A stretch of 64,000 nt of DNA. It comes from Mameliella sp. MMSF_3455 (GTDB lineage Bacteria > Pseudomonadota > Alphaproteobacteria > Rhodobacterales > Rhodobacteraceae). The translations under genes and the position numbers were made by a program. Below the pieces are notes generated by a model. It worked only from the letters and a program-made list of their open reading frames with translations, was not told where the DNA came from and did no database searches. Location: positions 1-64,000 of the forward strand of contig NZ_JASHJL010000016.1 in assembly GCF_030733205.1 (NCBI RefSeq), written 5' to 3'. Numbering within the stretch: position 1 is the stretch's first letter; the number at the start of each line of letters is the position of its first letter. Positions 43,163-53,366 of this stretch are shown here, one piece after another.

Positions 43163-43208
43163 TGGTGCTGCTGGAGAGAATTGAACTCTCGACCTCTCCC
43201 TTACCAAG
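43163..43208. repeat. attL: 46-bp copy of the tRNA-Thr 3' part
   Basis: This 46-bp block is identical to 53321-53366, in the same orientation. It runs from the CCA end to the anticodon loop of tRNA-Thr on the minus strand; identity stops at the next base on each side. It is only the 3' portion of a tRNA, with no D arm, so it is an attachment-site remnant and not a functional tRNA. Confidence 0.95.
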
Positions 43209-43290
43209 ACAGGGGTGGGCAGCTTAGAAGCCTGTTTTTAGGGCATTCCAGTCTTTGCGTGATCGCCGTTGTTTCCGTCATGTTCCGCAG

Positions 43291-43313
43291 TTTCTGTGCG
43301 GTATCTGTGCGGG
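43291..43313 (+). repeat. Left arm-type repeat, TTTCTGTGCGG
   Basis: TTTCTGTGCGGTATCTGTGC followed by GGG. It contains two TCTGTGCGG units, and the right end of the element has the same double motif at 53271-53292 in the same orientation. Positions just inside both att cores fit arm-type binding sites for the integrase. Confidence 0.55.
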
Positions 43314-43322
43314 AGTGCGCCC

Positions 43323-43715
43323 ATGTCTAGCTTTGGCAAACTGGCAAAACCCGCGCACAAGCGCATGTCGAAGATGCTGGGCTACACGCTCACTCTTGGC
43401 ACCACTGACGCCTGGTCCGGTTTCAGCGACGTTGCCGCCGCCCGGCTTTCGACCGAGGAACGCGCCGCGCTGGCCTTTGCAGCCCTGCGATCCCTGCACC
43501 CGGATCACGCCGAACTGACGGCCCGCGCCGCGATCCGCGTGGCAGGCGCGCCGGTTCCCGCCTTCCTGGGCCAGATGGATGAGGCCCGGTCCTGGGCGGC
43601 ACTCGCCAGCCGGGCAGAGCTGAAATCCTACGCGGCGGCAGCCTTCGACGCGATGAGCGCCGCCGATCAAGCAGCCTTCTTCCGACACATCAGCGAAGTG
43701 GAGATTGCGGCATGA
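43323..43715 (+). CDS. Element protein of unknown function (first gene of the head module)
   Basis: A 130-residue protein starting at the ATG at 43323 behind CGGGAG. It is Ala-rich and helical: MSSFGKLAKPAHKRMSKMLG, then LSTEERAALAFAALRSLHPDHAELTARAAIRVAG and MDEARSWAALASRAELKSYAAAAFDAMSAADQAAFFRHISEVE. I do not recognise a family. It overlaps the connector gene by four bases, so it belongs to the head module and may be a small structural or scaffolding-type protein. That role is inferred from position only. Confidence 0.8.
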   Translation: MSSFGKLAKPAHKRMSKMLGYTLTLGTTDAWSGFSDVAAARLSTEERAALAFAALRSLHPDHAELTARAAIRVAGAPVPAFLGQMDEARSWAALASRAELKSYAAAAFDAMSAADQAAFFRHISEVEIAA

Positions 43716-44260
43716 AACTAATTGCCACGCGCACCCCCGTCAGCGCATCCGACCCTTTCGACCTGGACGCCGTCAAAGATCACTTGCGAGTGGACTTCAC
43801 AGACGATGACAGCGGCATCGGCAACATGGCCCGTACCTCCGGGCAGGAGGTCGAGCAAGTCGCACAGATCGGGCTTCTGACCCAGACAATCCGGGTTGTG
43901 ATCCTTGACCCGGGCACAGACAGAATCCTGCGCCTGCCCATCGGCCCTGTTGCCGACGACGCGGAGGTGACCGTGTCCATAGACGGCGCATCCTTCACCG
44001 ACTTCACCCTGATCGGCGGTATCCGTGCGCTGATCCGATTTGGCGACACGTTCGACAACCTCACGCCGGAACAGATCGCGATTGAATACCCGGCAGGGTT
44101 TGGAGACAGCGCGACGGACATTCCGGCTGACCTCGCCCAGGCGATCATGGATCAGACCGCGCTGCACTATGACGGGCGGTCCCCGATGGACGCGAAGAGC
44201 CTCACCACGTCGCCGCATATGGCGCGGATCGCGGCCAGGTATCGCGGGGTGCAGGCATGA
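43712..44260 (+). CDS. Phage head-tail connector (phiE125 gp8 / HK97 gp6-like)
   Basis: A 182-residue protein of the gp6/gp8 connector group, forming the ring under the portal. The N-terminal helical part (MKLIATRTPVSASDPFDLDAVKDHLRVDFTDDDSGIGNMARTSGQEVEQ) is typical, followed by the strand-rich middle (VTVSIDGASFTDFTLIGGIRALIRFGDTF) and the C-terminal helix IPADLAQAIMDQTALHYDGR. Overlaps of four bases with both neighbours indicate one transcript. In ordinary HK97-like phages this gene follows the capsid gene; here it precedes the terminase. Confidence 0.88.
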   Translation: MKLIATRTPVSASDPFDLDAVKDHLRVDFTDDDSGIGNMARTSGQEVEQVAQIGLLTQTIRVVILDPGTDRILRLPIGPVADDAEVTVSIDGASFTDFTLIGGIRALIRFGDTFDNLTPEQIAIEYPAGFGDSATDIPADLAQAIMDQTALHYDGRSPMDAKSLTTSPHMARIAARYRGVQA

Positions 44261-51439: not shown

Positions 51440-52069
51440 ATGAAAGCGGGCGACCTGAAACGGATTGTGGCCGAGGCCATGCTTGTTGAGCCTTCCAAGG
51501 TTTGGGTGACCATGCGCAACCTGCGGGAAAACGATCTGATCACGACTGGCGCGCGGGGTGTGAATGCGCCCGATCTGACGTATCGGGACGCCGCCCGCGT
51601 GCTGCTGGCGCACATCCTGGACAGCAACCCAGGCCGCGCCGCACCGCGCTATGTGCGGGATTTTGGGCGGCTGCCCTGGGCCAATCCGGCTTTTGCCTGG
51701 GAGGACGATCCCTTCACGCTGGCAGAACTGGCCCCCGACAGCCCGACCGACACACTCGAGGATGCCATTGCAGCCCTGATCCGGGTCTTTGCCGAATGCC
51801 GGGAAACCGCTGCCTTTGTCGAGGCAGGCACGCGACTGCGCGACGGAGGCTTTCGCAACCCGGTTTGCCGGATAGAAGTCTTTGAAGAGGACGCAGCCGC
51901 GACGATCAGCATGGGCGCGGCTCACTATGCCTTCAACGAACGCCCGACAAGCGTCCGCGACTGGACCCCGGATCAGAACGAAGATCTGCGCCTTGGCAGG
52001 CAAGCCATTGCCTTCGTCAATCAAGAGGTGGTCGCGCGGATCGCAGATGGATTTGAGGGGGGGCAGTGA
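51440..52069 (+). CDS. Element protein of unknown function, possibly DNA-binding at its N-terminus
   Basis: A 209-residue protein. The first 45 residues (MKAGDLKRIVAEAMLVEPSKVWVTMRNLRENDLITTGARG) resemble a small winged-helix unit, ending in a beta-turn. The rest includes YRDAARVLLAHILDSNPGRAAPRYVRDFGRL, LEDAIAALIRVFAECRETAAFVEAG and ICRIEVFEEDAAATISMGAAHYAFNE-like strands. There is no primase, helicase or replication-initiator motif. It is the largest unassigned gene of the element and the best candidate for replication or helper-interference functions. Its stop overlaps the excisionase start by one base. Confidence 0.75.
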   Translation: MKAGDLKRIVAEAMLVEPSKVWVTMRNLRENDLITTGARGVNAPDLTYRDAARVLLAHILDSNPGRAAPRYVRDFGRLPWANPAFAWEDDPFTLAELAPDSPTDTLEDAIAALIRVFAECRETAAFVEAGTRLRDGGFRNPVCRIEVFEEDAAATISMGAAHYAFNERPTSVRDWTPDQNEDLRLGRQAIAFVNQEVVARIADGFEGGQ

Positions 52070-52425
52070 TGGCCCGCCTGATGACATTGCAAGAGGTTGC
52101 TAAGGAACTTCACCACACGGTCACGGTGGAGGCCCTGCGGAAGGCGGTACGCAGCGGCGAGCTGCGGGCGGATAAATTCAACACCCGGTCATATCTGACG
52201 ACCTGGGAATGGGTGCAGGAGTGGGTTTCATGCCGAGGCCGAGAAAGCCCGCGCGCCTCTACTGGCGCAAGGATGAACAGCAATGGGTCATCCGCGACGG
52301 AACCGCACAGATCAGGACAGGATTTGGTGCACAGCAGTCTCGCGAGGCTGAAAACGCGCTTTCCGACTACCTCGCCCAAAAAGCGGTCCCGGAGCGATCA
52401 GGGCCAGCACATCCGGGAGAGCTGA
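52069..52425 (+). CDS. Excisionase-like (AlpA/MerR-type) small DNA-binding protein
   Basis: A protein with an N-terminal winged-helix segment, MTLQEVAKELHHTVTVEALRKAVRSGELRADKFNTRSYLTTWEWVQEWV, the usual pattern of phage excisionases and AlpA-like activators. The start overlaps the previous stop by one base (TGATG). The frame stays open to 52425, giving 118 residues, but everything after about residue 53 overlaps the integrase gene and reads like a shadow. The functional part is therefore probably the first 55 or so residues. Confidence 0.65.
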   Translation: MARLMTLQEVAKELHHTVTVEALRKAVRSGELRADKFNTRSYLTTWEWVQEWVSCRGRESPRASTGARMNSNGSSATEPHRSGQDLVHSSLARLKTRFPTTSPKKRSRSDQGQHIRES

Positions 52426-53270
52426 CGGTGGGTGAGGTGCTTGCCAAATACGCGGATGACTACGGGCCGGGCATGGAAGCCCCGGCGACGTTGGCATATT
52501 CCATCGCCGCGCTAGCCCCTTTCTGGGCCGACCTGACTTGTGATGCCGTCAAGGAATCGGAATGCCGTCGGTATCAGGCACACCGCGACTGCGCGCCCGG
52601 CACGGTGCGCCGGGAGTTGGGGGTTCTGCAAGCCGCGTTGAACTATGCGCACCGAGAGGGCGTCCTTGTTTATCCGATCAAGGTGAAGCTGCCAGAGGCC
52701 GGAGCGATCCGGGACCGATGGTTGACCCGCGACGAATTGGCGTTGCTCTTGCGCGCCGCCGCGCCTCATGTGCGCAAATTCATCTTGCTTTCGTACTATA
52801 CCGGCAGGCGCGCCAGTGCGATCCTCGAACTGACCTGGTCGCGCGTCGATCTGGAACGCGGTGTTATCCGCTTCCGTGAAGACGGTCAGCGCGAGACGAA
52901 TAAGCGGCGAGGCCGGATCGTCATGCCGCGCCAGCTACGCTCGCACATTGCCAGGTGGCGTGCCGGGATGGACGCTCTGCCCCGCAATTCCGCTGCGCAT
53001 CAGACCCATGTCGTGATGTTTCGCGGTCAGACGGTGGCGAGCATCAAGAAGGGCATAAGGCGCGCGGCTGAGCGGGCCGGATTGGACGGCGTGACGCCAC
53101 ACGTTCTGAAACACACATCCATCACGCACGCGATCATGAGCGGCCTTGGGATCGAGGATGCGGCGGAATACTTCGACACATCGCCCGCGACCATCCGGGA
53201 ACACTACTGGCATCACAGCCCACATCAACAAGCAGCCGCTGTGCAGGTTATCGAACGGAGGGGAAGATGA
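52230..53270 (+). CDS. int: Tyrosine-type site-specific integrase
   Basis: A 346-residue integrase; the ATG at 52230 follows GGAG. The N-terminal part (MPRPRKPARLYWRKDEQQWVIRDG) resembles the arm-binding region of alphaproteobacterial phage integrases. The catalytic domain has Arg I in LSYYTGRRASAILEL (R193), box II TPHVLKHTSITH (H291, K294, H295) and the nucleophile Y326 in IREHYWHHSP. Box II carries Lys in place of the usual second Arg. It ends 50 bases from the tRNA-Thr att core, the position expected of the enzyme that made the insertion. Confidence 0.92.
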   Translation: MPRPRKPARLYWRKDEQQWVIRDGTAQIRTGFGAQQSREAENALSDYLAQKAVPERSGPAHPGELTVGEVLAKYADDYGPGMEAPATLAYSIAALAPFWADLTCDAVKESECRRYQAHRDCAPGTVRRELGVLQAALNYAHREGVLVYPIKVKLPEAGAIRDRWLTRDELALLLRAAAPHVRKFILLSYYTGRRASAILELTWSRVDLERGVIRFREDGQRETNKRRGRIVMPRQLRSHIARWRAGMDALPRNSAAHQTHVVMFRGQTVASIKKGIRRAAERAGLDGVTPHVLKHTSITHAIMSGLGIEDAAEYFDTSPATIREHYWHHSPHQQAAAVQVIERRGR

Positions 53271-53292
53271 TTTCTGTGCGGGTAACTGTGCG
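53271..53292 (+). repeat. Right arm-type repeat, TTTCTGTGCGG
   Basis: TTTCTGTGCGGGTAACTGTG followed by CG lies just after the integrase stop and 28 bases before the att core. It matches the motif at 43291-43313 at the left end (TTTCTGTGCGGTATCTGTGC), same orientation. Confidence 0.55.
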
Positions 53293-53320
53293 CCACTTCA
53301 TGGGCTTAGACCCTAAGTGG

Positions 53321-53366
53321 TGGTGCTGCTGGAGAGAATTGAACTCTCGACCTCTCCCTTACCAAG
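53321..53366. repeat. attR: 46-bp repeat inside tRNA-Thr
   Basis: Identical to 43163-43208. Here the block is part of the intact tRNA-Thr gene, from the CCA end through the T arm, variable loop, anticodon stem and anticodon loop. Confidence 0.95.

Follow-up and report, generated by a model that had tools for sequence, protein, structure and literature searches.

Our analysis of a 64,000-nucleotide stretch of the genome of Mameliella sp. MMSF_3455 (family Rhodobacteraceae; contig NZ_JASHJL010000016.1, positions 1 to 64,000, hereafter the window) revealed at positions 43163-53366 an integrated element that is very probably a capsid-forming phage satellite working like the capsid-forming phage-inducible chromosomal islands (cf-PICIs). 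At the sequence level, this interpretation is based on integration bounded by attachment (att) sites, a set of head genes, the lack of recognised tail genes, purifying selection, and the exchange of the stopper and integrase genes. A tRNA-integrated element of about 10.2 kb between perfect att repeats had been proposed in the original prediction, and its boundaries were borne out by a perfect 46-bp direct repeat (43163-43208 and 53321-53366) with a copy-to-copy spacing of 10,158 bp. The runner-up among the direct repeats listed in the same 12 kb reaches only 35 nt at 71% identity, which excludes a chance origin of the 46-bp repeat. The right copy is part of the tRNA-Thr(GGT) gene on the minus strand (53321-53395), and the element is flanked by host genes, a KDO transferase gene on the left and an EPSP-synthase-family gene, named MurA by us, on the right. 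In all five genus-mates searched the site is empty: tRNA-Thr(GGT) stands alone between the same two host genes, matches to which lie approximately 1.03-1.30 kb apart. The 46-bp att sequence of the window occurs exactly once in three of these genomes and is represented at 89-90% identity over 47-48 bp in the other two.

The features of the element are listed below by position in the window, strand, and nature.

43163-43208, no strand: attL, a 46-bp partial copy of tRNA-Thr; perfect direct repeat, single copy in the genus-mate empty sites
43323-43715, plus: E1, a conserved protein without assigned function, first gene of the element (gene call; cluster of 53)
43712-44260, plus: head-tail adaptor, conn (phrog_442, E 1.2e-14; Pfam PF05135 below its cut-off)
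44257-44481, plus: p74, a conserved 74-aa protein (group A4, 29 sequences; its slot swaps on the tree of the terminase large subunit)
44506-44831, plus: structured noncoding RNA with a pseudoknot core at 44586-44698 (covariation; no Rfam match)
44863-46584, plus: terminase large subunit, TerL (PF03354, PF20441 and phrog_9, E 5e-62, on the longer frame 44635-46584)
46575-46916, plus: stopper, or head completion protein Hc1 (PF05521 and phrog_25, on the longer frame 45927-46916)
46913-47269, plus: HNH endonuclease (PF01844, phrog_144)
47254-48519, plus: HK97-type major capsid protein (PF05065, phrog_617)
48519-49079, plus: prohead protease (PF04586, phrog_80)
49082-50152, plus: portal protein (PF04860, phrog_12)
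50274-50678, minus: m134, a small protein in a variable position (open frame; no convincing family)
50578-50856, minus: XRE-type repressor candidate (PF13560, phrog_5823)
50888-51097, plus: p69, no assigned function (gene call; also in the related element L031)
51094-51324, plus: p76, no assigned function (gene call; also in L031)
51440-52069, plus: p209, in the regulatory slot beside the excisionase and integrase genes (gene call; cluster of 12; no family)
52066-52425, plus: excisionase or AlpA-like small protein (phrog_66, E 1.9e-5)
52209-53270, plus: tyrosine integrase, start at 52209 or 52230 (PF00589, phrog_1)
53321-53366, no strand: attR, 46 bp inside tRNA-Thr(GGT), 53321-53395, minus strand

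Read from left to right, E1, adaptor, p74, a noncoding stretch, TerL, stopper, HNH, capsid, protease and portal form a plus-strand series, which is followed in the right half by m134 and the XRE gene on the minus strand and by p69, p76, p209, the excisionase-like gene and the integrase. All ten genes that the original prediction had named were confirmed by profiles; its placing of the adaptor beside the portal did not hold, as this gene is the second from the left end. E1, p74 and the conserved noncoding region are additions to the earlier gene list. The intact, overlapping frames described before were found again, adjacent head genes abutting or overlapping by 1-16 bases. No gene of the element convincingly matched a tail, lysis or replication family in Pfam and PHROG profile searches, in line with what had been predicted; the only tail matches were at chance level (m134 with phrog_23968, E 0.026, and the excisionase frame with PF20155, E 0.11). 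In the same searches E1 had no match, and p74, its relatives included, matched no informative family. No gene of the element matches the terminase small subunit (TerS) as its own family, nor do the relatives of E1 and p74, a divergent TerS being possible; the match of the HNH gene to phrog_4581, annotated as TerS, lies in the HNH part of that family. The best PDB match of the adaptor is a weak one to the adaptor protein Rcc01688 (E 0.0037), an entry that we take to originate from the gene transfer agent (GTA) of Rhodobacter capsulatus.

The lack of tail genes extends to the relatives of the element. Beyond the named core families, the 29 att-bounded relatives yielded 157 called proteins with a length of 50 aa or more, of which 147 were scanned. 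At a threshold of 1e-4 these accessory proteins matched 22 Pfam families (helix-turn-helix and other regulators, primases, AlpA, Rha, uncharacterised families and one head-completion protein), none of them a tail or lysis family, and among the 25 most frequent of their 112 PHROGs there was no tail family. As a positive control, a tailed prophage-like cluster of the same contig was scanned with ten of its genes and yielded four tail Pfam families at the same threshold. Initiators and primases were found by PHROGs among the accessory proteins, and AlpA (PF05930) in two of the 147. Defence cargo was also considered and no claim is made for it, PADLOC matching 18 families among the 147 proteins with a best E of 5e-8 and at most six members each. 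Relatives embedded in a full-length prophage with tail and lysis genes, which would have spoken against the original prediction, were thus not seen in the mapped att intervals; genes beyond the att sites of the mapped relatives were host-like as judged by eye only. Nor are the head genes inactivated in most strains, the other outcome then considered. The ratio of nonsynonymous to synonymous divergence (dN/dS) between the two copies of the element present in this genome was 0.04 for capsid, 0.04 for protease and 0.08 for portal, so that these head genes are under purifying selection. Internal stops occurred in 3 of the 43 listed family TerL matches, and three of the other 40 were partial.

The second copy lies on contig C66 at tRNA-Leu(CAA), with a 56-bp att repeat and a length of 10,055 bp. 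Its capsid (99%), protease, HNH and portal proteins are 97-99% identical to those of the window, while identity falls in BLAST comparison to 94% for TerL, 85% for the adaptor and 67% for the stopper. Its regulatory half is unlike that of the window, and its integrase, only 23% identical, was not recovered by a search with the window integrase.

Relatives of TerL (E <= 1e-60) were detected in 38 of 394 genomes of the family, or 36 of 347 good genomes, the former count including the window's own genome; widening the draw to the class gave 2 of 385 and to the phylum 5 of 398, again with the window's genome counted. The named relatives are Marivita geojedonensis, an uncultured Roseovarius, Rhodobacter capsulatus DSM 1710, Roseinatronobacter, Erythrobacter fulvus and the gammaproteobacterium Salinisphaera orenii (two contigs). 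The element of R. capsulatus DSM 1710 (L026) sits at tRNA-Thr and measures 10,209 bp. The proposal to look for the same gene set in related strains was answered by 29 of 39 mapped relative loci that have an att repeat with a tRNA gene, tRNA-Thr being among the targets together with Leu, Glu, Cys, Asn, Phe, Ser, Arg, Lys, Pro and Met. This set leaves out the window element and counts the C66 copy and two divergent genus-mate elements (L022 and L023); its att-to-att size ranges from 9,317 to 11,167 bp (mean 10,397, standard deviation 436), and seven of its att repeats are short (15-17 or 18-19 nt). A TerL scan of IMG/VR gave 143 relatives, and of the 80 kept 79 lie on contigs of 13.9 kb or less and one on 25.9 kb, lengths that are supporting rather than decisive. 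In a capsid scan, which gave 28 loci, two contigs were longer (25.1 and 20.6 kb), and in the part of them examined the element has other, host-like genes beside it (by eye). L022 and L023 (11,167 and 10,800 bp, both at tRNA-Asn) are head-only and similar in layout yet divergent, their capsids being 31-32% identical to that of the window. The two Salinisphaera orenii contigs, from one assembly, carry two different elements of the lineage (L028 and L029), one of them at tRNA-Pro with additional genes before terL. Two elements, L031 and L036, were likewise found under the single IMG record prefix 2788500142. L031 has p69, p76 and p209 in common with the window and an integrase of only 20% identity, which indicates that its integration module has been swapped.

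In three IMG/VR contigs (L067, L079 and L123) the integrase gene reads straight into E1, with only a partial tRNA in between (tRNA-Cys, 37 nt at 95%; tRNA-Met, 16 nt; tRNA-Glu, 15 nt), and a complete tRNA was not found in them. Such an arrangement would be expected of an excised circle. L087 was considered as a circular genome and was not used, since its ends overlap without gaps at only 469 of 720 identical positions and form no clean circle. To the left of the junction L079 carries, as judged by eye, a split frame resembling a lambda-type portal and a frame resembling a protease-capsid fusion, and it continues with excisionase, integrase and the HK97-type satellite head, hence a chimera or a tandem of two satellites. 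Contig L204 (IMGVR_UViG_2816332396_000001) has E1, p74, the RNA, the excisionase-like gene and the integrase of this lineage together with a lambda-type terminase, TerS and TerL (phrog_57 and phrog_15), and frames that by eye resemble a portal and a protease-capsid fusion; from its gene content we read it as a swap of the entire head module. Locus L226 (G031:C11, 7494-8298) has E1, p74 and the RNA without head genes nearby and is adjoined by a transposase-like frame (by eye). It is probably a decayed satellite.

The stopper stands apart from the remainder of the head module. It was less conserved than the capsid in all 54 pairs of elements with capsids more than 80% identical and all eight compared genes present, the mean identity in these pairs, which share elements and hence are not independent, being 53% for the stopper, 67% for the adaptor, 88% for the portal and 90% for the capsid. 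The protein p74, which is not a tail-interface gene, yet averages just 60% in the same pairs. Between the two copies in the genome synonymous divergence (dS) is 1.11 for the stopper versus 0.10 for the capsid, so that the stopper has been replaced rather than drifting. Of the 41 adaptor-type elements 19 lack it, and on the TerL tree (52 scored rows) at least 10 switches between presence and absence are needed. By these comparisons the stopper is swapped or lost far more often than the head, and such frequent exchange is what a head fitted to differing borrowed tails would show. Among phage proteins the stopper is best matched by those of Pthi1 (42%) and Shpa, both Paracoccus phages (41-42%), and of the Agrobacterium phage Rivra. 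The capsid had nine matches among phage records, at no more than 26% identity, and TerL 154, all below 60%, with the best 20 of the 154 at 28% or less.

Two clusters in the genome are candidate tail donors. One, a possible helper, is a tailed prophage-like cluster (L018) at approximately 84-104 kb of the same contig, outside the window, where genes for a tail tube, a tape measure and tail fibres are found; a GTA-like cluster, named by us from its gene order, lies on contig C68. The adaptor of the element is 28% identical to that of the former and 26.5% to that of the latter.

In the mechanism that we propose, the XRE repressor would keep the element silent and a tailed phage or prophage would induce it, upon which excisionase and integrase would release it from the chromosome. 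Replication would proceed by a module that varies among relatives, here possibly p74 and the structured RNA. TerL and HNH would package about 10 kb into the element's own small heads, adaptor and stopper would dock tails made by the helper, and the host cell would be lysed by the helper. Exchange or loss of the stopper may fit the head to different helper tails, and exchange of the integrase module may alter the tRNA target.

Several points weigh against the satellite interpretation. No TerS was recognised among the genes of the element, and no specific helper was singled out, the prophage-like and GTA-like adaptors being only 26-28% identical to that of the window; a relative of the stopper at 1e-8 was not found in 41 genomes (the own genome and 40 of relatives) beyond the two elements. 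Ten of the 39 mapped loci are without att (L020, L170, L171, L173, L181, L186, L187, L192, L193 and L196). The three integrase-E1 junctions could be tandem integrations, two of the three tRNA matches being only 15-16 nt, and an exact terminal direct repeat was seen in 0 of 80 IMG/VR contigs. IMG/VR may trim its contigs to predicted proviruses, so that their lengths are not independent evidence.

Among the other explanations, a decaying remnant of a full HK97-type prophage that has lost its tail and lysis genes could draw on the tailed prophage-like cluster on the same contig, whose TerL belongs to the same HK97-like group, phrog_9, as that of the element. It is nevertheless improbable, and largely refuted by the recurrence of the head-only layout in the 29 att-bounded relatives with near-constant size at many tRNA genes; moreover, the head genes are intact and under purifying selection, and no phage record reaches 60% to capsid or TerL. 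A complete tailless small virus that needs no helper would account for the full set of head parts and the uniform size, yet it would hardly retain an adaptor and a stopper, the known job of which is tail joining, and there is no recognised lysis gene. The evolution of the stopper by exchange is most sensible with a partner, and we give this possibility almost no credence.

The remaining alternatives involve gene transfer agents, which are vertically kept host loci without integrase or att. A GTA-like or domesticated particle system that packages host DNA might be suspected from the weak match of the adaptor to Rcc01688, from its identity to the adaptor of the GTA-like cluster and from a structural tree in PMC12846349 on which the capsid of the R. 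capsulatus GTA shares a branch with that of an E. coli cf-PICI. Against it stand the integrase and att sites, the empty sites in genus-mates, a patchy distribution (38 of 394 genomes), the two copies at different tRNA genes, a separate GTA-like cluster in the genome and the carriage of an element by the gammaproteobacterium Salinisphaera; we consider it very improbable. That the element is a satellite whose tails come from the host's own GTA instead of a phage was suggested by the best PDB match of the adaptor and the GTA-like cluster in the genome. This idea was rejected, and it too seems unlikely: the adaptor is no nearer to the GTA-like cluster than to the prophage-like one, the stopper is nearest to Paracoccus and Agrobacterium phages, and the lineage has a member in a gammaproteobacterium, a group in which we know of no such GTAs. 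The cf-PICI-like satellite thus stays the preferred interpretation, and the capsid-forming satellite of the original prediction is supported by the head and packaging genes, the lack of a recognised tail and the uniform 10-kb lineage.

The slot between adaptor and TerL is occupied by p74 in some elements and by a RepA-like helicase (c11) or an initiator-like helix-turn-helix gene (c22) in others, the latter two names having been assigned by us from the sequences. The RNA upstream of terL has 61 predicted pairs, 22 of them with compensatory changes, in a 27-sequence alignment. Hand drawing on 38 sequences, 37 of them distinct, gave a pseudoknotted core in which 98.5% of cells pair; 14 of its 21 pairs show two-sided changes, many more than in shuffles and slid controls. 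A second RNA sequence type (17 sequences) has the same layout, with 5 of 28 hand-drawn pairs covarying, and its number of pair types was not above shuffles (218/500); both hand-drawn structures were picked on the alignments used for counting, which favours the structures. The single sequence of the window folds no better than shuffles (z -0.50), which tells against a structure; the case for the RNA rests on covariation. Rfam 15 gave no family match, apart from one CRISPR-repeat match below its cut-off, and a narrow literature search turned up no description of this RNA.

A profile search found the RNA in 37 of 43 p74 elements, 0 of 16 with c11, 0 of 5 with c22 and 4 of 26 others, near-copies being counted. 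At least 8 changes of the p74 label are needed on the TerL tree. In eight independent pairs the RNA accompanied p74 in an average of 5.3, ran counter to it in 0 and showed no difference in 2.7 (median p 0.0625). Model R1 of the RNA matched at 1e-4 in 8 of 120 family genomes, that of the window included. The core motif was further found in 17 IMG/VR contigs: eight satellites with this head, L204, and eight others whose examined stretch lacks a TerL, capsid, protease or portal of this type. Two of the latter (L203 and L206) look like copies, and in some the neighbours look by eye like primase, helicase, repressor or TerS genes, one being from a 48-kb contig. A cos or pac site or a packaging RNA had been the first idea, from the position just upstream of terL. 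It was rejected as first choice because the core motif occurs in the eight contigs without the genes of this head and in the satellite with a lambda-type terminase, and because the RNA tracks the p74 slot and not TerL. It is possible, though rather doubtful, that in p74-type elements an RNA and not a replication protein starts replication, p74 and the pseudoknotted RNA of approximately 300 nt forming a compact origin module that would have been swapped repeatedly with helicase or initiator genes. The ColE1 primer RNA with Rop is an analogue of such a module.

These findings place capsid-forming satellites in the Rhodobacteraceae (Alphaproteobacteria), in about one in ten sampled species of the family, Rhodobacter capsulatus DSM 1710 included. 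In the available part of PMC10803314 the primary hosts named for cf-PICIs include no Alphaproteobacteria, so that the family stands outside the main hosts listed there. The original prediction knew of no described example; searches of the open-access literature likewise brought up no description of this lineage, though closed papers may contain one, and the accessible portions of PMC12946183 and PMC12846349, both of which pair satellite and Rhodobacter terms, do not describe it. The near-identical pair in one genome, unlike in stopper and integrase, amounts to a natural experiment in the matching of heads to borrowed tails, and the lineage exposes a conserved RNA that also occurs in other phage-like and mobile-element contigs.

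The element resembles cf-PICIs such as EcCIEDL933 in being integrated site-specifically by its own integrase, in having its own capsid, protease, portal, connectors, TerL and HNH, and in the lack of recognised tail and lysis genes. Regulation in cf-PICIs is of the AlpA or Stl type, and they have a primase or replication gene of their own. Here the candidates for regulation are the excisionase or regulator-like protein of phrog_66 and the XRE gene, and no primase or replication gene was recognised in the window element, primase or initiator families being present in some relatives. According to PMC10690885, cf-PICIs are widespread across Bacteria and encode capsid, protease, portal, connectors, HNH and both terminase subunits, whereas no TerS was recognised here. 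The capsid of the window belongs to PF05065, the Pfam family used for a cf-PICI capsid tree in PMC13230959. The lineage is also smaller (approximately 10.4 kb versus an average of 14 kb for cf-PICIs) and is set apart, going by the descriptions, by the order adaptor-p74-RNA-TerL-stopper-HNH-capsid-protease-portal. Since TerS is not recognisable and the likeness to published members is by description only, we call the element cf-PICI-like and not a cf-PICI. The Mulch and Flayer satellites of Streptomyces (MulchRoom and MiniFlayer), compared by their description in PMC10690885, likewise encode packaging and capsid proteins of their own and lack a primase homologue; they differ in their virulent helpers, direct terminal repeats and relatives in Actinomycetota.

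From a complete tailed prophage the window element and its relatives differ in having no recognised tail or lysis genes. The Paracoccus phages Pthi1 and Shpa, akin to the element in the stopper, are records of 38-40 kb and are absent from the capsid matches and from the best 20 of the 154 TerL matches. The R. capsulatus GTA has an adaptor of the same broad kind and an HK97-fold head, and is neither integrated by an integrase nor mobile as a unit. It packages random host DNA, as stated in PMC12946183. The window element differs from it in its integrase, att sites, empty sites and patchy presence, and shares its genome with a separate GTA-like cluster.

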